From assembly GCF_001570405.1 (NCBI RefSeq), contig NZ_BBYM01000023.1:1-64000 (forward strand): 64,000 nt of DNA, written 5' to 3'. Made by a program: the position numbers and the translations under genes. Shown here one piece after another: positions 7,290-48,498 of the stretch; position 1 is the first letter of the stretch, and each line of letters starts with the position of its first letter. The notes beneath the pieces were generated by a model that made no database searches, was not told the DNA's origin, and worked only from the letters and a program-made list of their open reading frames with translations. Source of the stretch: Microtetraspora niveoalba. Its GTDB lineage: Bacteria > Actinomycetota > Actinomycetes > Streptosporangiales > Streptosporangiaceae.

Positions 7290-7312
7290 GTCGCCGTCGC
7301 GGGGCCGGGAGG

Positions 7313-12627: not shown

Positions 12628-12964
12628 AGAGTCCTCCTGGCCAAAACTGAAATGAATTCTTGTTAACGCGAATGTAGCAACGAGACGCGCCGCACGGAAG
12701 AGCGGAAATCCGTCCCGAATGTCATCGGATGACCGGTTCTTGGGGGCCAAGCCGAGGTCACTGCCGCCGTCCCACGCACTCCCCGGCATGGGTGCGCCGG
12801 GGGGACGGGCCGGTCCGGCGGGGGATCCCCCGCTTCGCCGGGGCCGGGGTTTCGGCAACGTTACACCCGGAATTCCGGTCCCGTTCCGCTGACCGGGACC
12901 GCGTCTCGCGCCGGCCCCGCCGTCCCGCTAGGAAGTAGCCGTTCGAGGACGAAAGGTGGGCCGT
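12628..12964. promoter_or_regulatory. Divergent iclR / LLM oxidoreductase control region
   Basis: The 337-bp gap has an A+T-rich stretch next to iclR (12645-12680, with TTGTTAACGCGAATG), a perfect 16-bp palindrome GCGGGGGATCCCCCGC (12818-12833), and a candidate IclR box TTCCGCTGACCGGGA (12884-12898) nested in a larger GGTCCCG...CGGGACC inverted repeat, about 70 bp before the LLM start. I saw no credible reading frame inside. Confidence 0.45.
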
Positions 12965-34265: not shown

Positions 34266-34570
34266 GGCGGGGCTTCCCTTCACTCGGGGGGTGTCGCGTC
34301 CGGGGGTCGGCCGGGCGCGGGGCGGAGAGCGGGGAGGGTGGGCCCGGGTGGCACTCGTCCCGCCCCGCCGTCTCGGCGCGACGGCGGCGCGGGCGTCCGG
34401 GCCCGGCTACAGGGTGCGGCTTACGGGGGCGGTTATCGGCGACATGCGTCGTATGTCGCCCATATTTCGGGAAGCTAAGCCCGACTTACGCCGATTGTCA
34501 ACGAAAGGCACTGATCTGCTGATGTAACATCACGGTGAAGCATCGGGTCCGGACGTGATGGGAGAGGCGC
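34266..34570. promoter_or_regulatory. Divergent control region with a perfect 8-bp inverted repeat
   Basis: The 305-bp gap between the sugar-enzyme gene and the ROK gene has a 23-bp operator-like element at 34438-34460: GGCGACAT, 7 bp, ATGTCGCC. An A+T-richer stretch (CCCATATTTCGGGAAGCTAA, 34459-34478) follows it, a likely promoter zone. The GC-rich part 34290-34430 shows nothing else. Binding by the ROK repressor is inferred. Confidence 0.5.
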
Positions 34571-35773
34571 TTGACGCACGGCACACTGAGCGGGCCCGGC
34601 GGAGGCGCGGCCCCCGGCGCGGGAGCCCTGCTCTCGATCCTCAGGGACGGCCAGGCCCGCACGCGGGCCGAGCTGGCTCAGCTCACCGGCCTGGCGAGGT
34701 CGACCGTGTCCCAGCGGCTCGACGCCCTGATCGACCACGACTGGATCGTCCCGTCCGAGGACACGGTCTCCTCCGGTGGCCGGCCGGCCACCGCGTTCGC
34801 GTTCAACCGCGGCGCCCGCATCGTGCTGTCGGCCGACCTCGGCGCGACGCACGCCCGCCTCGCCGTCACCGACCTCGGCATGGCGGTGCTGGCCGAGCGC
34901 GCGGCCGAGCTGCCGATCGAGCGCGGCCCGGAGCCGACCCTGTCCTGGCTGGTCGACTCGTTCGAGGAGATGCTGGCCGCGACCGGGCATCCGCTCTCCC
35001 AGGTCTGCGGCGTCGGGATCGGCCTGCCCGGCCCCGTGGAGCACGTCTCCGGCCGGCCGGTGAACCCGCCGATCATGCCGGGCTGGGACGACTTCCCCGT
35101 CCCCGAGTGGCTCGGCGAGCGGCTCGCCGCCCCCGTCCTGGTCGACAACGACGTGAACATCATGGCCCTCGGCGAGCACTGGATCGCCAGCCCGGAGGTC
35201 GACCACCTGCTCTTCGTGAAGATCGGCACGGGCATCGGCTGCGGCGTCATCGCCGACCGGCGGCTGCACCGGGGCGCGCAGGGCGCGGCCGGCGACGTCG
35301 GGCACATCCGGGTCACCTCCGCGGGCGACGCGCTGTGCCGGTGCGGCAACACGGGCTGCCTGGAGGCGGTCGCGAGCGGCGCGGCGATGGCCGCGAAGCT
35401 GCGCGCCGCGGGGGTCGACGCCGCCGGCAGCCGCGACGTCGTACAGCTCATCCGCGGGGGCAGCGCGCAGGCCGCCCAGGTCATCCGGCAGGCGGGGCGG
35501 GACATCGGCGGCGTACTCGCCGCGATCGTGAACTTCTTCAACCCGTCGGTCATCGTCGTCGGCGGCGACATCGCCGAGGCGGGCGAGCACGTCCTCGCCG
35601 GGGTACGCGAGGCGATCTACAGCCGCTCACTCCCCCTCGCCACCCAGCACCTGACCATCCGGGCCAGCGAGCTGGGCGACCGGGCGGGCGTCGTCGGAGC
35701 CGCGGTCATGGTGGTCGAGCACGTGCTCGCGCCCGGCACCGTCGATCGCGCGGTCACCCCGGCCGCGGATTGA
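34571..35773 (+). CDS. ROK family transcriptional regulator
   Basis: 400 residues, probable TTG start at 34571 with GGGAGAGG upstream. N-terminal winged helix (LLSILRDGQARTRAELAQLTGLARSTVSQRLDALI, about 20-55), then the ROK kinase-like fold: LSADLGATHARLAVTDLG, GIGLPGPVEHVSG, LVDNDVNIMALGEHW, FVKIGTGIGCGVI, and the zinc motif GHIRV...CRCGNTGCLEAVAS. Such proteins are usually sugar-responsive repressors of adjacent carbohydrate genes, here the divergent sugar enzyme. Catalytic-type Asp (VDNDVN) is retained, so sugar binding is plausible. Convergent with terC, 15 bp apart. Confidence 0.92.
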   Translation: MTHGTLSGPGGGAAPGAGALLSILRDGQARTRAELAQLTGLARSTVSQRLDALIDHDWIVPSEDTVSSGGRPATAFAFNRGARIVLSADLGATHARLAVTDLGMAVLAERAAELPIERGPEPTLSWLVDSFEEMLAATGHPLSQVCGVGIGLPGPVEHVSGRPVNPPIMPGWDDFPVPEWLGERLAAPVLVDNDVNIMALGEHWIASPEVDHLLFVKIGTGIGCGVIADRRLHRGAQGAAGDVGHIRVTSAGDALCRCGNTGCLEAVASGAAMAAKLRAAGVDAAGSRDVVQLIRGGSAQAAQVIRQAGRDIGGVLAAIVNFFNPSVIVVGGDIAEAGEHVLAGVREAIYSRSLPLATQHLTIRASELGDRAGVVGAAVMVVEHVLAPGTVDRAVTPAAD

Positions 35774-35788: not shown

Positions 35789-36895
35789 TCACTGCTCGCG
35801 GCGGTCCGTGCCCGCCTCCGCCCCGGTCCCGGCATCCGGCTCCGCCCCGTCCTCGGCGGGGGCGCGCAGGGTGCCCGCGTGGGCGCGGGCGGCGGGGTCG
35901 CGGCGCGACTTCAGCAGGCTGGCCACGGTGGTCGCGGCCAGCACGGCCATGATCACGCCCAGCGAGAGGGGGGTCGGGATCTGCGGCACCGCGTCGCTGA
36001 GCCCGTGCGCCCAGTGCAGCACCAGCTTCACGCCGATGAACGCGAGGATCAGCGCCAGCCCGGTGGACAGGTAGACCAGCCGGTCGAGCAGCCCCTTGAC
36101 GAGGAAGAACAGCGCCCGCAACCCCAGCAGGGCGAACACGTTGGCCACCAGGACGATGTACGGCTCCTCGGTGACGCCGAACACCGCGGGGATCGAGTCG
36201 AGCGCGAAGAGCAGGTCCGTGCTGCCGATCGCGACCAGCACCACGAACAGCGGCGTGACCACCCGCCGCCCGCCGACCCGCGCGATCATCCTGCCGCCGA
36301 CGTACTCGGAGGAGGTCGGCAACACCCGGCGGGTCAGCCGGACCAGCGCGTTGTCCTCGGCGCTCGGGTCCTCGTCGCGGTGCCGGTAGAGCTGCACCGC
36401 GGTCCAGATCAGCAGCAGCCCGAACACGAGGAACATGAACGAGAACAGCGACAGCAGGGCCGCGCCGAGCACGATGAAGATCACCCGCAGCACGAGGGCG
36501 ATCATGATGCCGAAGGTCAGGGCCTTGCGCTGGTACTCGCCGGGCACCGCGAACGTGCTCATGATGATCACGAAGACGAAGAGGTTGTCGACCGAGAGGC
36601 TCTTCTCGACGACGTACCCGGCGAAGTACTCGGCGCCGTACTCCCAGCCCGCGTAGTACGCGAAGACGAGGCCGAAGGCCACCGCGACCGCGATGTAGAA
36701 CACCGACCAGCCGACCGCCTCGCGGAAGCCGACCGTGTGCGGCCGGACCACCCCGAGGGTCAGATCGAGCGCGAACAGGGCGACGACCACTCCGATGGTC
36801 AGCGCCCAGCCGACCGCGGTTACCTCCAGCACCGGGATTTCCTCCACCACGTCCGCGACGGTCCACGCGGGTCGCCCGTCGCCGCTGCTCGGCAT
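35789..36895 (-). CDS. TerC family integral membrane protein
   Basis: 368 residues with about nine membrane helices. TerC signatures: a charged intramembrane motif EKSLSVDNLFVFVIIMS and ATGSTDLLFALDSIPA-like IGSTDLLFALDSIPAVFGVT, each with conserved Asp. The C-terminal tail (about residue 320 on) is polar and probably cytoplasmic. TerC proteins export manganese or other divalent cations, in some bacteria at the translocon to metallate secreted enzymes; tellurite resistance is the historical name. No other ter genes are present. The 100-bp upstream gap holds only the terminator of the next operon. Confidence 0.92.
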   Translation of the reverse strand: MPSSGDGRPAWTVADVVEEIPVLEVTAVGWALTIGVVVALFALDLTLGVVRPHTVGFREAVGWSVFYIAVAVAFGLVFAYYAGWEYGAEYFAGYVVEKSLSVDNLFVFVIIMSTFAVPGEYQRKALTFGIMIALVLRVIFIVLGAALLSLFSFMFLVFGLLLIWTAVQLYRHRDEDPSAEDNALVRLTRRVLPTSSEYVGGRMIARVGGRRVVTPLFVVLVAIGSTDLLFALDSIPAVFGVTEEPYIVLVANVFALLGLRALFFLVKGLLDRLVYLSTGLALILAFIGVKLVLHWAHGLSDAVPQIPTPLSLGVIMAVLAATTVASLLKSRRDPAARAHAGTLRAPAEDGAEPDAGTGAEAGTDRREQ

Positions 36896-36995: not shown

Positions 36996-37694
36996 TCAGC
37001 GCGTACGGGACATCCCGGCGAGGATGCGCGACATCGCGCCCTCCAGGTGCCCGCGCAGCGCGGTCACCGCGCGCTCGGGCTCGTGCGCGACGCACGCGTC
37101 GAGGATGGCCTGGTGCTCCAGATGGCTGAGGCGCTGCCGCTCCGCGTCCTGGGTGGAGGCGAAGCGGTACCGCTCGCTGTTCTGCCACACCGGCTCGATC
37201 GCCCGCGGCAGCCAGCGGGAGCCGGACGCGTGGTAGATCGCGAAGTGGAACTCGGTGTGCGCCCGGCGGGCCCGGTCGACGTCGCCCCGGGCGAGCAGGG
37301 TCTCGTGCTCGGCGAGGGCCGTCTCCGCGCGGCGCACGTCGTCGGGGCCGATGGCCGCGGCGGCGCGGGCGACGGCCAGCGACTCCAGCTCGATGCGGAT
37401 CTCGTAGGTGTCGCGCAGGTCGGCCTCGCTGAGCTCGCGGACCCTGGCGCCCTTGTGCGGCACGATCTCGACCAGACCGAGCGCCTCCAGCCGGCGCAGC
37501 GCCTCGCGCACCGGCATGGGGCTCATGTCGAGCTGGGCGGCCAGCTCGGTCAGCTTCAGCGGGGACCCGGCCGGCAGGGCGCCGGCCAGGATCATGCCGT
37601 GCAGCTCCGCGGCCGCCGTCTCGGCGAGCGTGCGGCGCGGGCCCGAGTTGTCCGGGGAGAGCTCGAAGAGCCCGCCCCGCCCGCCGCCGCTCAT
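36996..37694 (-). CDS. GntR family regulator, FCD (FadR) subfamily
   Basis: 232 residues. Winged helix at about 20-88 (ETAAAELHGMILAGALPAGSPLKLTELAAQLDMSPMPVREALRRLEALGLV), with the PMPVREALRRLE recognition helix, then an all-helical FCD ligand domain with metal-site residues (YEIRIELESLAVARAA, HTEFHFAIYHASGS, SHLEHQAILDA). The ATG at 37694 overlaps the permease stop (ATGA), so it is the last gene of the transporter operon and probably autoregulated. Likely represses the catabolic block and senses its substrate; candidate sites are at 40373-40389 and 47201-47230. Confidence 0.92.
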   Translation of the reverse strand: MSGGGRGGLFELSPDNSGPRRTLAETAAAELHGMILAGALPAGSPLKLTELAAQLDMSPMPVREALRRLEALGLVEIVPHKGARVRELSEADLRDTYEIRIELESLAVARAAAAIGPDDVRRAETALAEHETLLARGDVDRARRAHTEFHFAIYHASGSRWLPRAIEPVWQNSERYRFASTQDAERQRLSHLEHQAILDACVAHEPERAVTALRGHLEGAMSRILAGMSRTR

Positions 37695-38551
37695 CGGTTC
37701 TCCTCCGCCCACGGGAGCAGCCGCCGCTCGAGGGCGGCCAGGCCGTAGAACAGGACGATGCTGATCAACCCGAGCAACGCCATCGCCGCGAAGGCCAGCG
37801 GTGTGTCGGCGCTGGCTCCCGACTGCACGATCACGAAGCCGAGCCCGGCGTCGGCACCGACGAACTCGGCGATGACCGCGCCGATGACCGCCAGAGAAAT
37901 GGCCACCTTGAAACCCACCAAGACCTGCGGAAGCGCATAGGGGAAGCGCACCTTGAAGAATGCCTGCACCCGACTCGCGTCCAGCGAGCGGACGAGCTCG
38001 ACCAGCTCGGCCGGTGTGGAACGCAGACCGGACGCGGTCGAGATCACAATTGGGAAGAAGCATAGCAGGAAGACCATGACGATCTTCGGGAGCTGCCCGA
38101 ACCCCATCCACACGACGAGGATGGGCGCGATGGCGATCTTGGGCACCGCGTTGACCACGAGCAGCAGCGGGTAGATCATGCGCTCGATCAGCCGCGAGCT
38201 CGCGATCAGCACCGCGATCGGCACGCCGACCACGATGGAGAGCGCGAACCCCTCGACCGTCTCCAGCAGGGTCACCCAGGACTGCGCGAGCAGGAACCCG
38301 GCGTGCTCGGTGAACGCGTCGACGACGTCTTTGGGCGAGGGGACGAGGAACTTCTCGATCGAGAAGACGACCGTCGCCAGCCACCACAGCGCGATGACGA
38401 CGACCATGCCGAGGACGGGGAAGCCCCAGTCGGCCAGCCGTTCGCGGATCCCGGTCCCGCCCGCGCCACGGGCCTCGGCCGGGGCGGCGGCCGCCGGTTC
38501 GGTGCGCGCCCGCGAAGCGTCCACGCCGTTCACTCCACCCACCCCGCTCAT
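37691..38551 (-). CDS. ABC transporter permease, SsuC/TauC/NrtB type
   Basis: 286 residues. A low-complexity N-terminus of about 35 residues, then six membrane helices (WGFPVLGMVVVIALWWLATV at the start). Cytoplasmic permease loop matching the EAA motif: TPAELVELVRSLDASRVQAFFKVRFPYALP, followed by VGFKVAISLAVIGAVIAEFVGADAGLG, characteristic of nitrate/sulfonate/taurine-type importers. Start at 38551 overlaps the ATPase stop by 4 nt. With the upstream genes it forms a complete importer whose substrate is probably the aromatic or heterocyclic compound degraded by the block. Confidence 0.92.
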   Translation of the reverse strand: MSGVGGVNGVDASRARTEPAAAAPAEARGAGGTGIRERLADWGFPVLGMVVVIALWWLATVVFSIEKFLVPSPKDVVDAFTEHAGFLLAQSWVTLLETVEGFALSIVVGVPIAVLIASSRLIERMIYPLLLVVNAVPKIAIAPILVVWMGFGQLPKIVMVFLLCFFPIVISTASGLRSTPAELVELVRSLDASRVQAFFKVRFPYALPQVLVGFKVAISLAVIGAVIAEFVGADAGLGFVIVQSGASADTPLAFAAMALLGLISIVLFYGLAALERRLLPWAEENR

Positions 38552-39318
38552 GCCGTCTCTCCCGTCCGCACGGGCATGAGCAGCTCGTGCAGCTCGGCGC
38601 TGACCTCGGTGACGCGGTCGGCGTGCGCGTTGTGCCCCAGCGTGCGCGGCCGGGGGATGTCGACCTCCACGATCCGGCGCAGCCGTCCGGGGCGGGCGCT
38701 GAGCACGACCACACGGTCGGCGAGCAGCACCGCCTCCTCGATCGAGTGGGTGACGAAGACGATCGTCGTCTCCTGCTCCATGCGGATCCGCTGGAGCTCG
38801 ACCGAGAGCTCCTCCCGGGTGAGCGCGTCGAGCGCGGAGAAGGGCTCGTCCATCAGCAGGACGTTGGGGTTCTGGATCAGGGAGCGGCACAGCGAGACCC
38901 GCTGCTGCATCCCGCCGGAGAGCTCGTGCGGCAGCCGCTTCTCGAAGCCGGCCAGGCCGACGAGTTCGAGCAGCTCGTGCGCCCGCCGCCGGTGGGAGTC
39001 CCGGTCGAGGCCGAGGATCTCCACCGGCAGCAGCACGTTCTCCAGGACCGGACGCCAGGGGAGCAGCGCCGGTCGCTGGAACATGAAGCTGACGTCGCGG
39101 CGCGGCTTGGTCACCGGTTCGCCGGCGACGGTCACCGTCCCGGACGTGGGGGTGAGCAGGCCCGCGATCATCCGGAGCATCGTGGACTTGCCGCACCCGG
39201 AGCGGCCGACCAGCGTCACGAACTCGTTGCGGCGCACCTCCAGGTCGATGTCGTCGAGGGCGTGGACCTGGCCCTGGCGGCCCGCGAAGACCTGGGAGAC
39301 GTGCGAGAGCTGGATCAT
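38548..39318 (-). CDS. ABC transporter ATP-binding protein, SsuB/TauB/NrtD type
   Basis: 256 residues. Walker A GRSGCGKST (about residues 39-47), Q-loop region FMFQRPALLPWRPVLENVLLP, signature LSGGMQQRVSL, Walker B NVLLMDEPFSALD, and H-loop FVTHSIEEAVLLADRV. All catalytic residues are present. It energises import through the overlapping permease. Nine bp separate its start from the binding-protein stop. Confidence 0.95.
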   Translation of the reverse strand: MIQLSHVSQVFAGRQGQVHALDDIDLEVRRNEFVTLVGRSGCGKSTMLRMIAGLLTPTSGTVTVAGEPVTKPRRDVSFMFQRPALLPWRPVLENVLLPVEILGLDRDSHRRRAHELLELVGLAGFEKRLPHELSGGMQQRVSLCRSLIQNPNVLLMDEPFSALDALTREELSVELQRIRMEQETTIVFVTHSIEEAVLLADRVVVLSARPGRLRRIVEVDIPRPRTLGHNAHADRVTEVSAELHELLMPVRTGETA

Positions 39319-39327
39319 CGCGCCTCC

Positions 39328-40344
39328 CTAGCCCCGCGGGGTGACGGCGAAGTCCACGACCTGGTCGGGCGTCACCCCGGCCGTGATCGCGCCCGCCTCG
39401 GTCAGGAGCCTGATGTTGGTCTCGACCCGCGCCCTGTCGACGACGCCGACCTTGCCGTCGGCGGACGGGACGTACGGCGCCATCGCCCGCACCTCGGCGG
39501 CGGCGACGGCCGGGTCCTGGGTGGGCTGGTTCTTCTTGAGGATCTCGCCGGTCTCCTCGGGGTGGGCGACCGAGTACTCCAGGCCCTTCATCAGGGCCGC
39601 GGTGAACTTCCCGACCAGTTCGGGCTTCTCCTTGGCCAGCTTCGCCGAGGTCAGCAGCGCGTTGCCGTACAGGTCGGGGAGCGCGTCGCCGTAGGGCAGC
39701 AGGACGGCGGTCCTGCCCTGGGCGGCCTTCTCGACGAGCGGCTTGCCGACGACGAACTGGCCGATCGCGTCGACTTTGCCGCCGGCCAGGAGCTGCGGCA
39801 GCGCGGGCGGGGCGGAGGGCACGAACTTCACCTTCGCCGCGTCGACCCCGGCGGCCTTGGCGTAGACCGGGAAGGTCACCTGGTTGGTCGAGCCCGGCTG
39901 GTCGGCGACCGTCCTGCCCTCGAGGTCCTTGGGCGCCTTGATGCCGCCGCCGTCGAGGGCCACGATCGCGGCGAGCGACTTCTGCTGCACCATGGCGACG
40001 GCGGTGACGGGCAGCTTCTCCCTGGCCGCGGTGATCAGGACGGTGGTGAAGTCGCCGGCGCCGAAGTCGGCCCGGCCGCTCGCCAGCAGCTTCATGACGT
40101 CGACCGTGCCGCTGCCCGGCTTGATCGAGACGTCGAGTCCCGCCTCCTTGAAGTAGCCCTTCTCCTGCGCCACGTACGCGTACGCGTCGCGGCCGAACGT
40201 GTTGAACGACGTCAGGTACTCGACCTTCTCGGCGGCCGGGGCGCCGGAGCCCCCGTCGCCGGAGCCGCCGCCCGAGCCGCAGGCGGCGGTCACGAGCACG
40301 ACCGCGGTGGCGCCGGCCAGGCGGGCGAACCAGGTGACCTTCAT
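39328..40344 (-). CDS. ABC transporter substrate-binding lipoprotein, NMT1/SsuA-like
   Basis: 338 residues. Lipoprotein signal with lipobox VTAAC (Cys22), then a Gly/Ser linker. NMT1/THI5-like two-lobe fold: AYVAQEKGYFKEAGLDVSIKPG, VDVMKLLASGRADFGAGDFTTVLIT, LEGRTVADQPGSTNQVTFPVYAKAAG, ALLTSAKLAKEKPELVGKF. Relatives bind sulfonates, nitrate, pyrimidine precursors or aromatic acids, so the ligand cannot be named. First gene of SBP-ATPase-permease-GntR. A motif shared with the head of the whole block lies 29-45 bp before its ATG. Confidence 0.9.
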   Translation of the reverse strand: MKVTWFARLAGATAVVLVTAACGSGGGSGDGGSGAPAAEKVEYLTSFNTFGRDAYAYVAQEKGYFKEAGLDVSIKPGSGTVDVMKLLASGRADFGAGDFTTVLITAAREKLPVTAVAMVQQKSLAAIVALDGGGIKAPKDLEGRTVADQPGSTNQVTFPVYAKAAGVDAAKVKFVPSAPPALPQLLAGGKVDAIGQFVVGKPLVEKAAQGRTAVLLPYGDALPDLYGNALLTSAKLAKEKPELVGKFTAALMKGLEYSVAHPEETGEILKKNQPTQDPAVAAAEVRAMAPYVPSADGKVGVVDRARVETNIRLLTEAGAITAGVTPDQVVDFAVTPRG

Positions 40345-40372
40345 TGACACTCCCTTCAATAAGCGCATATCG

Positions 40373-40389
40373 AATATCAAATATCTGAT
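40373..40389. promoter_or_regulatory. Candidate GntR operator before the transporter genes
   Basis: AATATCAAATATC (40373-40385) running into TCTGAT (to 40389), in an A+T-rich island. The 13-mer matches GATATCAAATGTC at 47208-47220 in 11 of 13 positions, and TATCTGAT occurs at both places. The GntR protein of the same block is the obvious binder; this is inference. Confidence 0.5.
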
Positions 40390-40405
40390 GACCGGAAGGC
40401 GTATC

Positions 40406-41395
40406 TCATATTCCGAGACGCCGGACGGGGTCACTCCCGCCCAGGAGGGCCCGCGCGTTCTCCACGCCGGCCCGCCGTACGAACTCGGGCCCGCGGTGGG
40501 CGACCAGCACGGCGGGGTCGTCGCTGCCCATCGGGAACGGCCAGTCGCTGCCGAGGACGATCCGGTCGGCCCCGAAGAGGTCCGCGGCCAGATCGACGAC
40601 GGCCGGGTCGTGGGCGAGGCAGTCGGCGTAGAAGCCGCGGATCGCCTCCCGGAGCGGCGCCGAAAGCGCGGGCACGCCCGGCCGGGCGGTGTCGGCGCCG
40701 CGCTGCCAGCGCCCGAGCACCGCGGGTACACATCCCCCGCAGTGGACGAGGAGGAACCGCAGCCCGGGGTGGCGGGCCGTCACCTCGCCGAAGAGGAGCT
40801 GCGCCACCGCCACGGCCGTCTCGTACGGGTTGCCGAGCAGGTTGGCGAGATAGAACTCCTCCAGCCGCTCGTCGGGGCTCGCCCCCGGATGCAGCAGGAG
40901 CGGGCGGCCGTCCTCGGCCAGGCGGGACCAGAGCGGTTCGAGGGAGGCGTCGGCGAGGCTGACCGACCGGCCTCCGGCGGAGGCCGCGAACCCGGCCCAG
41001 CGCCCCTCGCCCGGCGGTGCCGCGTCGCGCAGCCGGTCGTACTCGGCCGCGGCGACCTCGGGGTGCTCCAGCGGCAGGTACGCCATCGGCAGCAACCGGG
41101 GGCGGTCCGCGACGGCGCGCAGGATCCCGTCGTTCAGGGCGCGGACCCAGGTCGCGGCCTCGTGGGCGGGCAGGTGCTGGCGGAAGAACGGCGGCGGCGG
41201 CGAGACCGCGGCCGCGTCGAGGCCGCGCTCGCCGAGCCACGCCTCCAGCGCCTCGGGGCGGTAGAGCGACGGCGGGCCGACGGGCGCGCCGTCGACGGAC
41301 AGCCGCCCGTCGACGGCGGCCAGGCCCGGCAGCCCGGCCGGCTCGGCGGCGCCCAGGGAGGGCGCCAGATGGGTGTGCAGATCGATGCCGGCCAT
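40406..41395 (-). CDS. Amidohydrolase family protein (ACMSD-like)
   Basis: 329 residues of the PF04909-type amidohydrolases. IDLHTHLAPSLG (from residue 4) gives the first metal motif HxH, LLVHCGGCVPAVLGRW a metal histidine, and VLGSDWPFPMG the catalytic aspartate. Relatives include 2-amino-3-carboxymuconate-semialdehyde decarboxylase and gamma-resorcylate decarboxylase, so decarboxylation of a ring-cleavage product or aromatic acid is likely. Starts 14 bp after the FAH-family gene; the transporter operon follows after a 61-bp gap with a candidate operator. Confidence 0.87.
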   Translation of the reverse strand: MAGIDLHTHLAPSLGAAEPAGLPGLAAVDGRLSVDGAPVGPPSLYRPEALEAWLGERGLDAAAVSPPPPFFRQHLPAHEAATWVRALNDGILRAVADRPRLLPMAYLPLEHPEVAAAEYDRLRDAAPPGEGRWAGFAASAGGRSVSLADASLEPLWSRLAEDGRPLLLHPGASPDERLEEFYLANLLGNPYETAVAVAQLLFGEVTARHPGLRFLLVHCGGCVPAVLGRWQRGADTARPGVPALSAPLREAIRGFYADCLAHDPAVVDLAADLFGADRIVLGSDWPFPMGSDDPAVLVAHRGPEFVRRAGVENARALLGGSDPVRRLGI

Positions 41396-41409
41396 CGCGC
41401 CGGGCCTCC

Positions 41410-42297
41410 TCAGTCGCTGGTGAGCGGAACGTGGACCACGCGGTTGCGCAGCTCGCCCAGCCCCTCGACCCGGGTGACGAGCACGTCTCCCCCGGTGAGG
41501 AAGACCTGGGGGTCGCGCGCGTTGCCGATGCCGCTGGGTGTGCCGGTCAGGACCACGTCGCCGGCCCGAAGGGTCATCCCCCAGCTCAGCTCGGCGATGA
41601 TCCGCGCGAACGAGAACGCGGTCTGCCGGGTGCTCGCGTCCTGGAGCCGCTCGCCGTTGAGCTCGCAGCTGATCGCCAGCGCGTGCGGGTCGGGCACCTC
41701 GTCGGCGGTGGTCAGCCAGGGGCCGAGGGGCATCGTGCGGTCCACGCTCTTGCCCTTGAGCCACTGGCCGCCGTGGGCCCGCTGCAGGTCGCGCTGCGAC
41801 ACGTCGTTGGCCACCAGGTAGCCCGCGACGTGGTCGAGCGCCCGCTCCTCGGGGATGGACCTGCCGTCCCGCCCGATCACCAGGGCGACCTCTGCCTCGT
41901 AGTCCCACTTGGCGGAGATCCGCGGGTCCCAGGCGATGTCGTCGTACGGGCCGATCACGGTGTCCGGGCCCTTGGTGAAGAAGGTGGGGTGCTCGGGCCG
42001 CTCCTTCGGGTCCTGGCCCTCCCGTCTGCCCTTGGACTCCTCGAAGTGGTCCCAGTAGTTCCACCCCGTGCAGAGGACGTCGCGGTTGAAGCGGCGCAGC
42101 GGCGCGGCCAGGTCCAGGCCGTCGAGGGGGCGCCGGGGCGCGGACGCGGCGGCGCGGCGCACGGCGTCGAGCGCCTCCGCCCCGCCGCGTACGACGTCGT
42201 CGACCGAGGGCGCGGCCGCCGGGAGCACCGCGGCCTCGCCGTCCGCGACCACGGCCGTGCGGACCTCGCCGCCGAGCCGGACGGCGGCCAGCCTCAT
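41410..42297 (-). CDS. Fumarylacetoacetate hydrolase (FAH) family protein
   Basis: 295 residues. The C-terminal FAH domain has NRDVLCTGWNYWDHFEES, FFTKGPDTVIGPYDDI, DYEAEVALVIGRDGR, GYLVANDVSQRDLQ, GKSVDRTMPLGPWLTTADEV and GDVVLTGTPSGIG, including the metal-binding Glu and Asp. Members cleave or decarboxylate oxo-acids from aromatic degradation (fumarylpyruvate, oxalocrotonate, acylpyruvates). The ATG at 42297 overlaps the RidA stop (ATGA). Together with the amidohydrolase it probably finishes breakdown of a ring-fission product. Confidence 0.9.
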   Translation of the reverse strand: MRLAAVRLGGEVRTAVVADGEAAVLPAAAPSVDDVVRGGAEALDAVRRAAASAPRRPLDGLDLAAPLRRFNRDVLCTGWNYWDHFEESKGRREGQDPKERPEHPTFFTKGPDTVIGPYDDIAWDPRISAKWDYEAEVALVIGRDGRSIPEERALDHVAGYLVANDVSQRDLQRAHGGQWLKGKSVDRTMPLGPWLTTADEVPDPHALAISCELNGERLQDASTRQTAFSFARIIAELSWGMTLRAGDVVLTGTPSGIGNARDPQVFLTGGDVLVTRVEGLGELRNRVVHVPLTSD

Positions 42298-42704
42298 CGG
42301 CCGTCCCCGTCGTCCACGACCGCGATCGCGTTGATCTCGATCAGGTAGTCCTTGTTGACGAACTTGGAGACCTCCACCAGCGTGGACGCGGGCGCGACGC
42401 CGGTGAAGTACTGCCGCCGCACCTCGTGGATGGCGGCGAAGTCCTCCATGTTCCGCACGTAGACGTCCACCTTGGCGATGTCGTCGAGCGTGCCCCCGGC
42501 GGCCTCCACCGCCGCCTTGAGGTTCTGGCACACCTGGTGGGTCTGCGCGCTGACGTCGCCGACTCCGGTGACGCCGCCGTCCTTGTTGCGGGCGGTCATC
42601 CCGGAGATGAAGACCAGCCGTCCCCGGGCCTCGGTCGTCGTGGCCTGGGCGAAGTGCCCGTTCGGCACGGCCAGCTCGGGACTGCGGATCTCTCGCTTGG
42701 GCAT
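42294..42704 (-). CDS. RidA family (YjgF) deaminase
   Basis: 136 residues from the ATG at 42704, chosen for AGGAG 6 nt upstream; upstream residues in frame are not family-like. RidA motifs: GRLVFISGMTARNKDGG, QTHQVCQNLKAAVEAAGGTLDDIAKVDVYV, APASTLVEVSKFVNKDYLIEINAIAVV. RidA proteins hydrolyse enamines and imines; in aromatic pathways relatives act as 2-aminomuconate deaminases. Its presence suggests a nitrogen-bearing substrate or an enamine intermediate in this block. Confidence 0.9.
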   Translation of the reverse strand: MPKREIRSPELAVPNGHFAQATTTEARGRLVFISGMTARNKDGGVTGVGDVSAQTHQVCQNLKAAVEAAGGTLDDIAKVDVYVRNMEDFAAIHEVRRQYFTGVAPASTLVEVSKFVNKDYLIEINAIAVVDDGDGR

Positions 42705-42748
42705 GGGTGCTCCTGCTTTCTGGGGGTTGGCTGTCGGGAAGCCGCGGG

Positions 42749-43273
42749 TCAGCGGGCGTCGTCGGGGTCGGAGTACCACTCCGGCTGGGTGGGATAGTGC
42801 GGCCCGTCGTACACCTCGAGGAGCACGGTGTCCTCCTCGGCGCGGGTGGGGCCGTGCAGGCTGCCCTTGGGGTTCCAGTAGAAGGAGCCCTCCGTCAGGG
42901 TCAGCCCGGTCGGCACGTACGTGTAGCGGCCACTCAGGCAGAACATGAACTGGTTCGAGGCGTGCGAGTGCCGCGACGGGATGCCCGATCCGCGGGCGAA
43001 GCGCACCAGCGCGATCGAGGCGCCGGTCGCGTCGTCACGCCACAACATCTTGTGCGACAACCCGGCGAGGGTCTTGTCGGCCCATTCCAGGTCGCCGGTG
43101 TGCAGGAGGATCTCCCGGAAGCGGGCCAGCGCCTCGCCGTCCGGGCCGGTCGCCTCCCGCTCGCGGGACCGGTCGGGCGCCTCCCCGGAGTACGCCGCGG
43201 GCTCGGAGAGGTTGTTGTCCCACTCCTCCTGCGAGATCCCCTCCGGGCGGGCGGGGCGGACGCGCTCAGCCAC
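42749..43273 (-). CDS. Cupin domain protein, possible ring- or C-C-cleaving dioxygenase
   Basis: 174 residues. A cupin core lies at about 75-160: GLSHKMLWRDDATGASIALVRFARG, SRHSHASNQFMFCLSGRYTYV, SFYWNPKGSLHGPTRAEEDTVLLEVYDG. Metal ligands HSH (with the following Glu replaced by Gln/Asn) and a later His fit a three-histidine centre as in acetylacetone-cleaving Dke1 and 2,4'-dihydroxyacetophenone dioxygenase. No classical ring-cleavage dioxygenase exists in the block, so this or the next cupin may fill that role. Overlaps the second cupin stop by 8 bp. Confidence 0.75.
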   Translation of the reverse strand: MAERVRPARPEGISQEEWDNNLSEPAAYSGEAPDRSREREATGPDGEALARFREILLHTGDLEWADKTLAGLSHKMLWRDDATGASIALVRFARGSGIPSRHSHASNQFMFCLSGRYTYVPTGLTLTEGSFYWNPKGSLHGPTRAEEDTVLLEVYDGPHYPTQPEWYSDPDDAR

Positions 43274-43631
43274 GGTTCTCCCCCAGGCACTTCAGCTCGA
43301 CCAGGCGGCAGCGGTAGCGGGTGTCGCCGTGGTTGGTGAGCATGTGGATCTCGCCGGGCTCGCGGTAGACCACGCCGCCGACGGCCTCGTGGACCAGCCG
43401 CGGCTCGCCTCCCTTGATCGAGTCGATCCGGTTGTCCGCCGCCTCCAGGGCGATCACCAGGTACGGGTTGAGGTGGTGGTGCCAGGGCTGCGACTGGCCG
43501 GGGGTCAGCTCGATCTCCCAGACGCGCACCTGCTCGTTCTCGAAGACGATCTCCTGGCCGACGGGGCCGAGGGTGACGGGCGCGCCGTCGGGCCCGGTCA
43601 GGGGCTCGTTCGCGGGGTCGGGACCGGTCAT
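43266..43631 (-). CDS. Small single-domain cupin
   Basis: 121 residues from the ATG at 43631 (TGGAGGAAG upstream). Cupin motif: VRVWEIELTPGQSQPWHHHLNPYLVIALE, VVYREPGEIHMLTNHG. HHH plus the later His could bind a metal. Size and sequence do not identify a reaction; it might be an isomerase, a dioxygenase or a binding protein. Its stop overlaps the start region of the larger cupin, suggesting coupled translation. Confidence 0.75.
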   Translation of the reverse strand: MTGPDPANEPLTGPDGAPVTLGPVGQEIVFENEQVRVWEIELTPGQSQPWHHHLNPYLVIALEAADNRIDSIKGGEPRLVHEAVGGVVYREPGEIHMLTNHGDTRYRCRLVELKCLGENRG

Positions 43632-43675
43632 GCTTCCTCCAGTGGTCGGGGTGGCTAGGGACTGGGACTCGTCGT

Positions 43676-45298
43676 TCACGGGGTCAGGGGCGGCCTGCGG
43701 CCGGTGATCCGCTCGTAGACCGCCCCGGCGGCGTCCTCGTCCGAGGCCGGGTCGTAGGGCAGGATCGCCGCGACGTGGGCGTCCGGGCGCAGCAGGACGA
43801 GCGTGTCGGGGCCGACGCCGAAGCGCCGCCGTACCCGCTCGGCCGGGTCGAACAGGGCGCGGTCGCGCAGGCCGGAGTCGTGCGGCGCGTCCCACCGGGA
43901 CACCGCGTAGCGCCGCAGCGCCGGGCTGTCCTGGGCCGGGACGCGCGGGCGGCGCCGGGTGTCGGTGAAGTACAGCGCGACGAACGCGTCCGAGGTGAGG
44001 TCGTGCAGGTGGACCGGGCCGTCCGCGCCGAAGAGCGGCAGGTCGGGGGCGCGGTCCCCGGCGCGCACCGGGGCCGGCTCGTCGCCGGTCTTCACCATCG
44101 ACCAGTCGCCGGTGCCGTCCACGTCGAGGCTGACGCCGAGCAGGCCGCGGGTGAACGCGTTGCCCCAGTTGCCCTCGGTCATCGCGTCGACCGCCTCGCC
44201 GCGGTGGCTCATGTACGCCCGCGCGGCCTCGGCCATCTCGCCGGACCCCTTGATCGCGACCGGCGCCTGCTCGACCTCGTAGCCGGCCAGCAGCGACTCG
44301 TCGGCCCAGCCGCGCAGCACCCAGGCGAGCCGCCACGGGAGGTTGGAGGCGTCGAGCACCCCGGTGTTCAGCCCGAGCGCCCACATCGGCGTGATCAGGT
44401 GGGCGGCGTCGCCCATGAGGAAGACCCGGCCGTCCCGCCACCGCCCCGCCACCCGGTGGTGGACGGTGTAGACGTTGGTGCCGAGCACCTCGATGTCGTC
44501 CACCTCGCCGATGAAGCGCAGCGCCTTGTCGCACAGCTCCCGGTGCGTCGGCTCGGCGGCGTCCCTGGCCAGCGGGTAGAGGAACCGCCAGCAGTGCGGC
44601 TGGCGGACCAGGATCATCCACTCCGACGGGTCGGAGAAGTACGCCAGGTAGGGGTAGTCGCGCGGGTTGCCGACGTCGAGGTCCACCTTGAGGTCGACCA
44701 GCATGTAGCGGTCTTCGAGCGTGTGCCCCTCGACCGTGATGCCGAGCCGTTCGCGGACCTGGGAGCGGCCGCCGTCGCAGGCGAGCAGGTAGCGCGCCCG
44801 CACGGTCGTCTCGCCGTCCGGTGTGTCCAGCGTCAGCTCGACGTGATCGTCGTGCTGGGTGAAACCGGTCAGCCGGTGCGCCATCCGCAGGGCGCCGGGG
44901 GCGCGCCGCTCGAAGGCGCCGCGCAACACCGGCTCCAGATGGTGCTGCGGGATGTTGATCACGAAGGGGAAGCGGGTGTCCTCGGTCAGCTCGCCGGTCC
45001 GCACGCTCAGGGTCGGCTCGTTGGTGACCCGGTCGATCTCGCCGATCTCGTCGATGCGCAGCGACGCCCGCAACACCTCCGGCAGCGCGCCGTACCGGTG
45101 CAGCACCTCGAGGGTGCGGGTGAGGACGGTGCCCGCCTTGGTGTCCAGCGACAGCCGGTCGTCCTCCTCGAACACGGCCACCGGCACGCCGTAGTGGGCC
45201 AGGCCGAGCGCGGTGATGAGGCCGACCGGGCCGGCGCCGACGACCGCGACGGGGAGGATCTCCCCGCCCGCTCCGGCCCGCGTTGTCGTTTCGGTCAA
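43676..45298 (-). CDS. FAD-dependent aromatic hydroxylase (MhpA/PheA-like)
   Basis: 540 residues, group A flavoprotein hydroxylase. FAD fold [22 protein letters not shown] (residues 16-37), middle motif YLLACDGGRSQVRERLG, and RVFLMGDAAHLITPMWALGLNTGVLDASNLPWRL for the FAD ribityl site. A C-terminal thioredoxin-like domain (from about 400: DRAPDLPLFGADGPVHLHDL, DTLVLLRPDAHVAAI) matches phenol-type and 3-(3-hydroxyphenyl)propionate hydroxylases. It should hydroxylate an aromatic ring using NAD(P)H. Follows the SDR gene by 7 bp. Confidence 0.9.
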   Translation of the reverse strand: MTETTTRAGAGGEILPVAVVGAGPVGLITALGLAHYGVPVAVFEEDDRLSLDTKAGTVLTRTLEVLHRYGALPEVLRASLRIDEIGEIDRVTNEPTLSVRTGELTEDTRFPFVINIPQHHLEPVLRGAFERRAPGALRMAHRLTGFTQHDDHVELTLDTPDGETTVRARYLLACDGGRSQVRERLGITVEGHTLEDRYMLVDLKVDLDVGNPRDYPYLAYFSDPSEWMILVRQPHCWRFLYPLARDAAEPTHRELCDKALRFIGEVDDIEVLGTNVYTVHHRVAGRWRDGRVFLMGDAAHLITPMWALGLNTGVLDASNLPWRLAWVLRGWADESLLAGYEVEQAPVAIKGSGEMAEAARAYMSHRGEAVDAMTEGNWGNAFTRGLLGVSLDVDGTGDWSMVKTGDEPAPVRAGDRAPDLPLFGADGPVHLHDLTSDAFVALYFTDTRRRPRVPAQDSPALRRYAVSRWDAPHDSGLRDRALFDPAERVRRRFGVGPDTLVLLRPDAHVAAILPYDPASDEDAAGAVYERITGRRPPLTP

Positions 45299-45305
45299 CG
45301 TCGTC

Positions 45306-46034
45306 TCACTCCTTCGGGTAGGCGCGGTCGCGGCTCAGCAGCGAGCCCGTCATGGTCGCGGCGTCGGAGAGCAGGAAGAGCAGGGGGCCCACGACGTCCT
45401 CCGGCGTGCCGATGCCGGTAGTGCGCAGCCAGTGCTCCCGCTCGCCCCCGGTCGGGTTGGCCGCCTGGAACTGCGGGGTGTCGACGACCCCGGGGGCGAT
45501 GACGTTGACCCGGATCCGGTGCTCGGCGACCTCGGCGGCCAGCGACTTGGCGAACGCGACCAGCGCGCCCTTGCTCGCGGCGTACGCGGACGCCTCCGCC
45601 CGGCCCATGTGGGCGAGGCCCGAGCTGAAGACCACGATCGAGCCGGAGCGGCGCTCGGTCATCGAGGGCAGGACGGCCTGGCAGGCCCAGACGACGCCGT
45701 CGAGGTTGACCCCGAGCACCCGCCGCCACTCGTCGGCCGGCATGTCCGCCACCTTGGTACGCGGCTGGATCGCGGCGCCGGCCACCAGGCCGTCGACGTG
45801 TCCGTGCCGGGCGAGCACCCCGGCCACGGCGGCGGTGACCGCGTCGCGATCGGACACGTCCACGGCGACCTGCTCCACGCCGGGCGCGCCGTCCAGGTCG
45901 GCCGTGTGGAGCACGTCGAGCACCACGGCCGTGCCGCCCGCCGCGCCGACCGCGCGGGCCAGGGCCGCGCCGATGCCGCTCGCCCCGCCGGTGACCACGA
46001 CCACCTGGCCGGTCGCGTCGAAACTCATCCTCAT
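45306..46034 (-). CDS. Short-chain dehydrogenase/reductase
   Basis: 242 residues from the ATG at 46034 with AGGAGGAG upstream; an earlier in-frame ATG lacks this. Rossmann motif VVVTGGASGIGAALARAVG (near residue 11), AGAAIQPRT as the NNAG-like site, catalytic Ser in VVFSSGLAHMG, and YAASK. All active-site residues are present. Probably oxidises an alcohol or a dihydrodiol in the pathway. The upstream dehydrogenase ends 29 bp before it. Confidence 0.9.
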   Translation of the reverse strand: MRMSFDATGQVVVVTGGASGIGAALARAVGAAGGTAVVLDVLHTADLDGAPGVEQVAVDVSDRDAVTAAVAGVLARHGHVDGLVAGAAIQPRTKVADMPADEWRRVLGVNLDGVVWACQAVLPSMTERRSGSIVVFSSGLAHMGRAEASAYAASKGALVAFAKSLAAEVAEHRIRVNVIAPGVVDTPQFQAANPTGGEREHWLRTTGIGTPEDVVGPLLFLLSDAATMTGSLLSRDRAYPKE

Positions 46035-46063
46035 GGTCGTCTCCTCCTGTCGCCCGGCCCGGC

Positions 46064-47158
46064 TCACGCGCCGGCGGGGTCGTCGGCACCGGGCATCGGG
46101 GGCAGCGCGGCCCCCACGTCGGCGGCGGTGCGGCGCAGCGCGTCGAGCACGCTCGCCCCGATCGGCACGCCGCCCGCCAGCGCGGCGGCGCGCCGCTCCG
46201 CCTCGATCTGGCCGGGCAGCAGCACCCGGTCGACGCCCGGGGCGGTGGGCGAACCGGTGACCTCGCCGGTGAGCCGGGCCAGCCGCCCGGCGAACTCGTC
46301 CGGGTCGCCGAAGGCGGCGACGTCCAGCGCGAGGAAGAAGTGGGCGCAGTCGTTGGGCACCGACGTGTCCGCGTAGAGTCCCCGGACACCCTGCCCGAAG
46401 GCGCCCCCGGAGAGCACGCCGGTCAGCACGTCGACGACCAGGGCGAGGCCGAAGCCCTTGTGCCCGGCGGCGGGCAGCAGCATCCCGGCGATGGCGGCCG
46501 CCGGGTCCGTGGTGGGACGGCCCTCGGCGTCGGTGGCCCAGGTCGGCGGGATCTCCCGGCCCTCCTGCCCGGCGAGCCTGATCTTCCCGAGGGCGGCCTC
46601 CGAGAGCGCCATGTCGAGCACCATCGGCGCGCCGTCCGCGACCGGCACGCCCACCGCGAGGGGGTTGTTCCCGACGACAGGGCGGGCACCGCCGATCGCG
46701 GGCATCAGCGGGCGGGTGTTCGCGGCGGCGATCCCGACGCAGCCCTCCCGCGCCGCCGCCTCGACGTAGCGGAACGCGCCGCCGAAGTGGAAGGCGCGGC
46801 GCACGGTGACCGCTCCGACGCCGAAGTCGCGCGCCTTGCGCACGGCCAGGGCCATGGCCTGGTCGCCGGTGAGCTGGCCGAGCGCGTGCCCGGCGTCGAG
46901 CACGGCGACCGCGCCCTTGTCCACGACGACGTCGGCCTGCTCGCGGCGGCTGACGGAGCCGGCCCGCACCCGGTCGACGTACATCGGCACGAGCATGGTG
47001 CCGTGCGAGGCGACGCCGCGCATGTCGGCCTCGACCAGCGCCTCGGCCACGTCCCGCGCGGCGCCCGCGCTGAACCCGGCCGCCGCGAAAACCGCGCCGA
47101 CCGCGTCACGTAGCCAGTGCGCGGGCACGACTCCGTCGTGGCCCGTCGGAGCATTCAC
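46064..47158 (-). CDS. Ldh2-type (malate/lactate/ureidoglycolate) dehydrogenase family protein
   Basis: 364 residues. Landmarks: EADMRGVASHGTMLVPMYVDRVRAG, HALGQLTGDQAMALAVRKARDFGVGAVTVRRAFHFGGAFRYVEAA, GGARPVVGNNPLAVGVP, MVLDMALSEAALGKIRLA and GHKGFGLALVVDVLTGVLSG. These NAD(P) enzymes act on 2-hydroxy or 2-imino acids, the latter including piperideine-2-carboxylate. First gene of the block; an A+T-rich promoter zone with candidate GntR sites lies 43-72 bp upstream. Confidence 0.9.
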   Translation of the reverse strand: MNAPTGHDGVVPAHWLRDAVGAVFAAAGFSAGAARDVAEALVEADMRGVASHGTMLVPMYVDRVRAGSVSRREQADVVVDKGAVAVLDAGHALGQLTGDQAMALAVRKARDFGVGAVTVRRAFHFGGAFRYVEAAAREGCVGIAAANTRPLMPAIGGARPVVGNNPLAVGVPVADGAPMVLDMALSEAALGKIRLAGQEGREIPPTWATDAEGRPTTDPAAAIAGMLLPAAGHKGFGLALVVDVLTGVLSGGAFGQGVRGLYADTSVPNDCAHFFLALDVAAFGDPDEFAGRLARLTGEVTGSPTAPGVDRVLLPGQIEAERRAAALAGGVPIGASVLDALRRTAADVGAALPPMPGADDPAGA

Positions 47159-47196: not shown

Positions 47197-47230
47197 GTCA
47201 AGTATCTGATATCAAATGTCAAGTATCAGA
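47197..47230. promoter_or_regulatory. Candidate GntR operator at the head of the catabolic block
   Basis: GTCAAGTATC occurs twice (47197-47206 and 47219-47228, 22 bp apart). TATCTGATATC and the inverted TCTGATA/TATCAGA halves make the region partly palindromic. GATATCAAATGTC (47208-47220) matches the transporter-operon site at 40373-40385. Confidence 0.5.
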
Positions 47231-47343: not shown

Positions 47344-48498
47344 TCACCGGACTCGGCGGAAGAAGGCGCGGACGTCCCCGACCAGCAGGTCCGGCGCCTG
47401 GAGCGCGGCGAAGTGGCCGCCGCGGTCGAATTCCGTCCAGTGCACGACGGCGTGCTCGCGTTCGGCGAAGGCCCGCACGGTGGAGTCTCCGGGGAAGACC
47501 GCCATGCCGGTCGGGACCGGGCAGTGCTCGGACCGCCGTCCCCAGGAGGCGGCGGCCTCCTTGTAGAGGCGCGCCGCCGAGCCGGCGGTGCGGGTCAGCC
47601 AGTACAGCGTGACGTTGGTGAGGATCGCGTCCCGGTCCACACCGCCGACGTCCTCCCCGTACCCGTCGAACCATTCGAGGTTCCAGGCGAGCTGCCCGAC
47701 CGGCGAGTCGAGCAGGGCGTAGGCGAGGGTCTGCTGGCGGGTGCTCTGGATCGCGGCGTAGCCGGACCGCTCCCCCTGCCAGCGGGCGACCCCCGCAAGG
47801 CGGGCGCGTTCGGCGTCGGTCAACCCGTCCGTCTCGGCCGGGTCGCCCGACGGGAGCGCGAAGAACGCGTTCACGTGCAGGCCGGCGACGTGGTCGGGCG
47901 CGGTCCTGGCCAGCTCCGGGGAGATCCGCGCGCCCCAGTCGCCGCCCTGGGCGCCGTACCGCTGGTAGCCGAGGCGGCGCATCAGCTCCGCCCAGGCGCG
48001 GGCGACGCGGGGGACGTCCCACCCGGTCGCCGTGGTCGGCCCGGAGAACCCGTAGCCGGGGATCGACGGGACCACCACGTGGAACGCGTCGGCGGGGTCG
48101 CCGCCGTGCGCGCGGGGATCGGCCAGCGGCCCGATCACGTGCAGGAACTCGGCCACCGACCCGGGCCAGCCGTGGGTGAGGACCAGCGGCAGCGCGCCGG
48201 GCTCGGGCGAGCGCACGTGCAGGAAGTGCACGTTCTGGCCGTCGATGGTCGTGGTGAACTGCGGGAACGCGTTCAGCGCCGCCTCGTGGGCACGCCAGTC
48301 GTAGCCCGTGGTCCAGTAGCCGGCCAGCTCCCTCACCCGGGCGAGCGGCACGCCGTAGGACCATCCGGTGCCGGGGATCTCGTCCGGCCACCGGGCGGCG
48401 GCGACGCGGGCGCGCAGGTCGTCCAGGTCGGCCTGGGGGATGTCGATGCGGAACGGGCGGATCTCGGTCATGGCGTTCATGTCGTCCATGTCATCCAT
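47344..48498 (-). CDS. Epoxide hydrolase family protein (EHN domain, alpha/beta hydrolase)
   Basis: 384 residues if started at the ATG at 48498; a start at 48471 (MTEIRPF) is equally likely and neither has a clear Shine-Dalgarno. N-terminal EHN domain ([33 protein letters not shown]), oxyanion HGWPG, nucleophilic Asp in [11 protein letters not shown], and histidine in [12 protein letters not shown]. Microsomal-type epoxide hydrolases open epoxides to diols. Divergent from a WYL regulator, a pairing often seen in actinomycetes. The repeated MDDMDDM start is odd and favours the internal ATG. Confidence 0.88.

Follow-up and report, generated by a model that had tools for sequence, protein, structure and literature searches.

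A conserved twelve-gene catabolic operon of Microtetraspora niveoalba with a 121-residue cupin as candidate ring-opening enzyme

A block of twelve open reading frames, all on the minus strand and spanning positions 36996–47158 of a 64,000-nt window of Microtetraspora niveoalba DNA (contig NZ_BBYM01000023.1, assembly GCF_001570405.1; the window is the whole stretch that was analysed), is a real, conserved catabolic operon, and its twelve genes are one unit. An earlier sequence-only reading had named twelve same-strand genes and their families, which the open reading frames and Pfam matches bore out, and its view of the block as catabolic for an aromatic, possibly nitrogenous, compound was supported. 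The comparisons themselves establish the unity and spread of the cluster, the mutual exclusion of cupA and a VOC dioxygenase, the conservation of site residues and a promoter element common to several loci. Reactions were assigned from family chemistry; on this basis the operon would import an aromatic acid and degrade it aerobically, the likeliest substrate being N-heteroaromatic (pyridine- or pyrimidine-like), with the tiny cupin cupA as ring opener, a scheme to which we give close to an even chance. The broader proposal is that cupA (about 100–120 residues) defines a new family of metal dioxygenases that open rings, the AzcA-like cupins, and that these and VOC extradiol dioxygenases can replace each other in an N-heteroaromatic pathway, so far undescribed, of many soil actinobacteria and proteobacteria and of all 38 Kribbella genomes examined; it is put forward tentatively, the balance being tilted against it.

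In the proposed pathway an NMT1/THI5-type ABC importer would take up the aromatic acid, a group A flavin aromatic hydroxylase (FMO) would hydroxylate the ring and an ACMSD-like amidohydrolase (AMH) would decarboxylate it (compare PicC, below), the order of these two steps being left free. The ring would then be opened with O2 by cupA, a tiny 3-His cupin, a job that a VOC extradiol-type dioxygenase (EDO) would do in some Burkholderiales. A second cupin, cupB, would hydrate or tautomerize the ring-fission product (compare LumY), a RidA-like protein would act on the enamine or imine nitrogen or on a tautomer, and an enzyme of the fumarylacetoacetate hydrolase family (FAH) would cleave an acylpyruvate-like product to pyruvate and a small acid, with an Ldh2-family enzyme and a short-chain dehydrogenase/reductase (SDR) providing redox steps.

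Conservation of the gene cluster

Relatives of the block were collected by scanning genome contigs with an alignment of the FMO (43676–45298, minus; PF01494 FAD_binding_3, E 1.1e-68), on which the cluster is anchored. Of 110 confirmed loci the best 80 were taken and, together with an Agrobacterium and a Mesorhizobium plasmid locus, made up the counting set of 82 loci; L016 was omitted from the counts as a duplicate of L050. Per-gene identity thresholds were chosen after inspection of the tblastn table, genes at loci on contig ends were scored absent, and the labels c12, StyA, Mo, Rieske and VOC were each based on one representative in that table. A core locus was defined as one with at least three of cupB, Ldh2, RidA and FAH; 65 of the 82 loci, some of them proteobacterial, qualified (48 outside the Kribbella type and 17 Kribbella-type clusters), and L027, a second Kribbella cluster that carries cupA, was placed among the 48.

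All twelve genes were found together in 11/82 loci, exclusively actinobacterial, on one strand and within 9.8–10.4 kb; at least seven of the twelve (FMO included) were present in 63/82 loci, and cupB, Ldh2, RidA and FAH were all present in 58/82. The block is thus a conserved neighbourhood and not a set of genes scattered in relatives. As a negative control, the same thresholds were applied to seven 20-kb regions surrounding paralogues of the FMO in the M. niveoalba genome; cluster partners were found in 0/7, the best near-match being FAH at 35%, under threshold. The FMO is 55–88% identical to its relatives, and the next best FMO of its own genome reaches 39%. Gene order varied among locus groups while gene content was constant, and the proteobacterial loci had the same enzymes but another binding protein (c22).

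The solved relatives of the FMO include RebC, GrhO5, RdmE and rifampin monooxygenase, as might be expected if the block served biosynthetic tailoring or detoxification and no growth pathway. We consider this highly improbable, given an importer with its binding protein, the FAH and the AMH, the lack of any assembly-line or export gene in the Pfam scan of the block, and the occurrence of much of the set in Burkholderiales and Rhizobiales as well.

Distribution was patchy. At E 1e-100 the FMO gene was detected in 9/200 genomes of the family (own genome counted) and in 0/3 other genomes listed under the same genus; cupA was detected in 5/296 genomes of the class (own genome counted), and cupB in 2/398 genomes of the Variovorax phylum (centre genome counted) and in 1/296 genomes of the window's phylum, the latter being its own genome. 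Horizontal spread of the operon is likely, as Actinomycetota, Burkholderiales and Rhizobiales all have copies of the cluster and two of these copies are plasmid-borne. The carrier genera are mostly soil or plant bacteria. Near the FMO of the Acrocarpospora loci L022, L023 and L024 a P450-family gene and an additional SDR were observed.

cupA and the ring-opening step

No ring-cleavage dioxygenase family was among the Pfam and NCBIfam matches listed for the twelve genes, in line with the sequence-only reading, which had seen no ordinary enzyme of this kind and had proposed a small cupin as ring opener. The NCBIfam scan covered 10/12 proteins (the matches listed for SDR and FMO being the best 25 of 222 and the best 25 of 62), and among the matches listed none reached its cut-off; cupA, cupB and AMH had zero NCBIfam matches at E 1e-3. 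cupA (43266–43631, minus) encodes a 121-residue mono-cupin without a Pfam or NCBIfam family. H51, H53 and H96 were invariant in the 55/55 aligned sequences, with Tyr57 at the usual Glu position, as in a 3-His non-haem metal cupin, the histidines of both cupA and cupB being assigned to the metal positions by what we take to be the cupin motif. The nearest match in both sequence and fold (model pLDDT 91.5) was AzcA (9u8o; TM(target) 0.94, rmsd 0.9, 34% identity), whose reaction is known from its PDB title alone (9u8n, 9u8o, 9u8p), where it is a triazine-forming cupin and not a catabolic ring opener; no publication on AzcA was found in a literature search. Some relatives of cupA have two such domains in tandem in one protein. 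A 3-HAO identity was considered for both cupins and rejected: cupA had no Pfam match, and those of cupB were Cupin_7, Cupin_2 and DUF4437, none of them 3-HAO.

The occurrence of cupA was exclusive with that of the EDO. Of the 48 core loci that are not of the Kribbella type, 42 had cupA without a VOC dioxygenase, 6 had the EDO without cupA, none had both and none had neither (Fisher 8e-8, kinship ignored); the two were together in 0/82 loci, and a seventh EDO locus (L064, non-core) was likewise without cupA. The EDO is a Glyoxalase/Dioxygenase-superfamily protein related to the models for HpaD and catechol 2,3-dioxygenase, under their cut-offs, and the extradiol signature pattern, in the form that we presume it to have, was matched by 2/7 EDO proteins. 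In the FMO tree, built from 84 rows by a quick method, the starred branches require at least two cupA/EDO label changes, which may be two gains or one gain with one reversal. Because of this exclusivity with a VOC extradiol-type dioxygenase, and because AzcA is the nearest structure, cupA is the best candidate for the ring-opening enzyme as judged from sequence comparison, which backs the earlier proposal of a small cupin.

FMO, cupA and importer were found without the lower genes in 9/82 loci (L022, L024, L052, L070, L073, L084, L087, L090 and L099), and L054 had FMO and cupA. The 17 Kribbella-type clusters, at first sight a counter-example, contained neither cupA nor EDO; an unlinked cupA, 44–46% identical, was present in 10/10 checked genomes of these clusters, and the ten 20-kb stretches around it held nothing else of the cluster beyond weak SDR or ATPase matches (30–37%). 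Across Kribbella, FMO and cupA were both present in 38/38 genomes searched, the two genes being on separate contigs or over 3.5 Mb apart, and one of the 38 additionally had a linked FMO–cupA pair. The M. niveoalba genome itself has a distant VOC relative (29%, E 7.5e-5).

Several observations weigh against cupA as ring opener. The label changes on the FMO tree are few, and a gain followed by a reversal is possible. Six non-core loci (L007, L042, L061, L063, L077 and L094) had neither cupA nor EDO; a cupA was found on the stretch adjoining L007, the distance from the FMO to the end of the locus is under 500 bases in L061 and L077 and at most about 900 in L063, and the locus ends do not account for the missing genes in L042 and L094. 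In two of the four other genomes of the class that have cupA (L017 and L018) the importer adjoins it and no FMO was found in the 20 kb read. The co-occurrence of FMO and cupA in Kribbella is consistent with a joint role and no independent test of it, because both are universal there, and a distant VOC relative (32–38%) was present in 3/10 checked Kribbella genomes. A 3-His cupin site is, moreover, compatible with hydratases and isomerases too.

As an observation in its own right, L017 and L018 have a cupA (60–62% identical) next to an importer of the block's type (ATPase 73–74%), which is another setting for a cupA-type cupin.

cupB

cupB (42749–43273, minus) encodes a 174-residue cupin (PF12973 Cupin_7, E 1.5e-15), a probable hydratase/tautomerase or dioxygenase. 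H102, H104 and H140 were invariant, with Gln108 at the usual Glu position (71/71), so placed by the same presumed motif as to form a 3-His non-haem metal site, and a fold search with the model (pLDDT 91.6) returned generic cupins, KdgF and diketone-dioxygenase folds being among the nearest. It was found alongside the EDO in 7/7 EDO loci, and also in the clusters L101 and L102 described below; the coexistence in 7/7 loci makes it more likely that cupB acts after ring opening, as far as gene content can tell. The reverse arrangement, in which cupB opens the ring and cupA and the VOC protein carry out a later or accessory step, was weighed and found fairly improbable. It would agree with the greater constancy of cupB (65/65 core loci versus 42 for cupA), with its presence in the 17 Kribbella-type clusters that are without cupA, and with a 3-His site and fold near diketone dioxygenases and 2,4'-dihydroxyacetophenone dioxygenase; the coexistence of cupB with a VOC dioxygenase in the 7/7 EDO loci and in L101 and L102, and the loci in which FMO and cupA occur without cupB, speak against it.

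Plasmid searches with cupA and cupB brought up the Mesorhizobium cluster treated below and two paralogous clusters, both with cupB. L101, on a plasmid of Streptomyces sp. NBC_00525 (6597–16772), has an HpaB-like hydroxylase, a VOC dioxygenase, an RraA-type aldolase, cupB, an aldehyde dehydrogenase (ALDH; best model L-piperidine-6-carboxylate dehydrogenase, under cut-off), RidA, a cytosine permease, a flavin reductase, an HsaA-like enzyme and FAH, and further cupB matches were found on S. coelicoflavus and S. anthocyanicus plasmids. L102, on plasmid p1 of Gemmobacter fulvus (1827–13833), has two Mo-hydroxylases around a VOC dioxygenase, cupB, RidA and FAH, and is probably an N-heterocycle pathway.

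Lower-pathway enzymes and amidohydrolase

The RidA-like protein (42294–42704, minus) belongs to the fold family PF01042 Ribonuc_L-PSP (E 1.8e-27). The position equivalent to Arg105 was located through what we take to be the E. coli RidA motif; Ser34–Gly35 and Glu123 were kept, Ser107 occupied the place of the catalytic Arg in 68/68 aligned sequences, and the imine-hydrolase Arg that characterizes RidA and Rid1–Rid3 was absent from all 68. For Rid proteins without this Arg canonical imine hydrolysis is not predicted, and about 10% of RidA proteins carry Ser, according to the excerpts available of PMC4433059 and PMC5619798. In the FAH-family enzyme (41410–42300, minus; PF01557 FAA_hydrolase, E 3.8e-69), an acylpyruvate-type hydrolase, decarboxylase or hydratase, residues E134, E136, D165 and K183 were invariant (62/62), and RidA and FAH were both over threshold in 59/65 core loci.

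AMH (40406–41395, minus; PF04909 Amidohydro_2, E 2.1e-25), a probable decarboxylase and optional in relatives, is closest to ACMSD among solved structures (human ACMSD, E 2.5e-28), and the ACMSD metal-site residues were kept (H169, H218 and D284 in 58/58; H7 and H9 in 56/58, with two gaps). Its gene was nearly exclusive with c12, a CrtO/CrtI-like FAD oxidoreductase: in the 65 core loci both were present in 3, AMH only in 48, c12 only in 11 and neither in 3. Because it passed the threshold in just 51/65 core loci, AMH looks like an entry enzyme comparable to PicC, by analogy, and not like a part of the lower pathway.

These data bear on a carbocyclic aminophenol route, in which an aminobenzoate- or hydroxyanthranilate-like compound would give an amino-muconate-type enamine, followed by ACMSD-like decarboxylation, deamination by RidA and hydrolysis by FAH. 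Such a route is unlikely in our estimate, though it deserves serious weight: the affinity of AMH to ACMSD and the joint occurrence of RidA and FAH would fit, as would an AraC regulator resembling AndR (the anthranilate dioxygenase regulator; under cut-off) beside StyA- and Mo-type relatives, and the piperidine-6-carboxylate-type ALDH, under cut-off, of the paralogous Streptomyces cluster L101. The twelve genes, however, include no 3-HAO family match and, in the Pfam scan, no ALDH; the RidA-like protein has Ser in place of the imine-hydrolase Arg throughout, AMH is missing from part of the core loci, and Mo-hydroxylases would be unexpected. The amino-muconate intermediate that the sequence-only reading had drawn from RidA and the ACMSD-like enzyme was not upheld, in view of Ser107, the missing ALDH and the frequency of AMH.

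In seven relatives of the block (L025, L028, L029, L036, L038, L039 and L041) AMH and the importer were missing, and every one of the seven had a StyA-like monooxygenase, a CrtO-like FAD oxidoreductase, the FAD subunit of a Mo-hydroxylase and an AraC regulator of the AndR-like type.

Importer and substrate class

The importer consists of an NMT1/THI5-like substrate-binding lipoprotein (39328–40344, minus; PF09084 NMT1, E 6.9e-46), an ATPase (38548–39318, minus; PF00005 ABC_tran) and a permease (37691–38551, minus; PF00528 BPD_transp_1). The binding protein was nearest to 4nmy (an unnamed binding protein, E 1.9e-21), 3ix1 (a formylaminopyrimidine binder, E 2.4e-17) and THI13/THI5 (E about 1e-12) among solved structures. 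It had been described as part of an SsuABC-type importer; this holds at the superfamily level, whereas for the SsuA family (TIGR01728) the score of 85.8 bits stayed below the cut-off of 163.5.

A Mo-hydroxylase large subunit was found within the fetched stretch of 11/82 loci, compared with 0.98 expected from the density in the M. niveoalba genome (five per 8.47 Mb). A 21-kb span of a Mesorhizobium loti plasmid contains cupA, cupB, Ldh2, RidA, FAH, FMO and AMH; one Mo large subunit is interspersed among these cluster enzymes and a second lies about 2 kb farther out, whereas the SDR was not found there. Because of the Mo-hydroxylase excess, the kinship of the importer to pyrimidine binders and that of cupA to AzcA, an N-heteroaromatic substrate is favoured on comparative grounds. 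Points on the other side are that no Mo-hydroxylase large subunit was seen in 71/82 loci, that StyA-like, Rieske, luciferase-like or P450 genes occur in some loci and would suit carbocycles or indoles equally, and that an FMO with an extradiol enzyme recalls flavonoid A-ring breakdown (FdeE/FdeC), for which nitrogen is not needed. Because other loci bring StyA-like, Rieske, P450 or luciferase-like enzymes, several substrates may be fed into the core through a common hub compound, with importer, AMH and GntR regulator as one version of the entry.

Catabolism of a phenolic compound or a flavonoid A-ring that contains no nitrogen (FdeE/FdeC or IfcA-like), with the RidA-like protein acting only as a tautomerase or as an accessory, appears improbable to us. 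An FMO combined with VOC-type ring cleavage is known flavonoid logic, as the excerpts available of PMC11069340 have it. The Rid protein without imine-hydrolase Arg would suit such a catabolism. Carriers mostly from soil and plant genera would suit it too. It fits poorly with the Mo-hydroxylase enrichment, with an importer akin to pyrimidine binders and a cupA akin to AzcA, and with the cytosine permease in the paralogous cluster.

Comparison with known systems

No described pathway with this gene set was matched in the open-access full text and family libraries searched, in agreement with the sequence-only reading, in which the combination was not recognized as a described pathway. The kpi system for 4-hydroxypyridine of Arthrobacter IN13 (PMC7356986) resembles the block in its flavin hydroxylase, an unconventional ring-opening dioxygenase, a proposed last step by an FAH-family enzyme and an N-heteroaromatic substrate, and differs in its Amidohydrolase_1 ring opener followed by an alpha/beta hydrolase; RidA, Ldh2, a cupin or an NMT1 importer is not mentioned in the available part of that paper. 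In the Pfam scan a KpiC-type Amidohydrolase_1 (PF01979) was not in the block, which has solely Amidohydro_2 (PF04909).

In the pic system for picolinate of Alcaligenes and Bordetella, as presented in the portion available of PMC10142695, the compound is likewise first hydroxylated and then decarboxylated, the latter by the amidohydrolase-family enzyme PicC, which acts on 3,6-dihydroxypicolinate; it differs in having picB1–B4 in place of a single FMO gene and a PicD/E/F/G lower pathway to fumarate. Neither the Mo-hydroxylase PicA nor the PicD/E/F/G families were among the Pfam matches of the twelve genes. In the nba/kyn meta pathway of 3-hydroxyanthranilate, cupin, ACMSD-like, RidA and FAH families occur together; the block has neither its 3-HAO cupin nor an ALDH, has an Arg-less RidA-like protein, and has FMO and cupA instead.

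The lum pathway for lumichrome and riboflavin of Nocardioides simplex (PMC12746152) shares with the block a small cupin (LumY), an FAH (LumV) and a logic of Mo-hydroxylase and extradiol cleavage. LumY is a dienedioate hydratase acting after ring fission, according to the excerpts of that paper, and is likened to cupB by role. The lum pathway differs in its P450, thiamin-dependent decarboxylase, Rieske and extradiol enzymes and aldolase, and a group A FMO is not mentioned in these excerpts. The lumichrome pathway was therefore rejected as the identity of the block, the enzymes being different, and kept as a precedent for a cupin hydratase. The fde/ifc flavonoid catabolism (PMC11069340, in the part available) is similar in its FMO followed by VOC-type ring cleavage and in the cupins of its cluster; the block has cupA at the place of the VOC enzyme, and that text does not use the words RidA, fumarylacetoacetate or amidohydrolase.

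Operon architecture and regulation

The first gene of the block encodes an Ldh2-family NAD(P)-dependent 2-hydroxy/2-oxo-acid (or imine) oxidoreductase (46064–47158, minus; PF02615 Ldh_2, E 6e-115; 64/65 core loci) and is followed by the SDR gene (45306–46031, minus; PF00106 adh_short, E 8.7e-50; 61/65 core loci), and the last encodes a GntR/FCD transcriptional regulator (36996–37694, minus; PF07729 FCD, E 3.5e-27; PF00392 GntR, E 7.1e-17). Neighbouring genes mostly overlap or stand a few bases apart, and there are apparently two transcription units, from Ldh2 to AMH and from the binding protein to GntR.

The element TTGACATTTGATAT, a probable promoter –35/operator site, was found as an exact match before Ldh2 (47209–47222, minus) and as two overlapping degenerate copies, with 2 and 3 mismatches, before the binding-protein gene (40367–40387, minus). 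At up to 3 mismatches there were 3 matches per 64 kb against 0.10 expected, and such sites were seen in the window only ahead of the two transcription units of the block. The first 13 bases were found in 7/152 fetched loci, each about 100 bases or less ahead of the first cluster-gene match, and exactly in 4/9 loci whose upstream sequence was inspected (L020, L021, L033 and L035); the element is accordingly not universal. We infer that the GntR protein binds this element, and the operon is probably under the control of its own GntR regulator.

Upstream of the block, on the same strand as Ldh2 and about 190 bases away, lies an epoxide hydrolase gene (EHN + Abhydrolase_1; 47344–48480, minus), followed by a WYL/HTH regulator (48561–49550, plus). 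On the other side are genes for a GSDH-PKD-CBM6 protein (31530–34283, minus), a ROK regulator (34571–35773, plus) and a TerC membrane protein (35789–36895, minus).

Implications

If the proposed scheme is true, the operon would represent a widespread soil pathway for nitrogen-ring compounds that has so far not been described, in which a protein of barely more than 100 residues opens aromatic rings. The exchange of cupA for a VOC protein would then mean that two unrelated small genes are expected to catalyse the same reaction on what a single hydroxylase produces. The operon's own regulator and binding protein provide handles for finding the compound.

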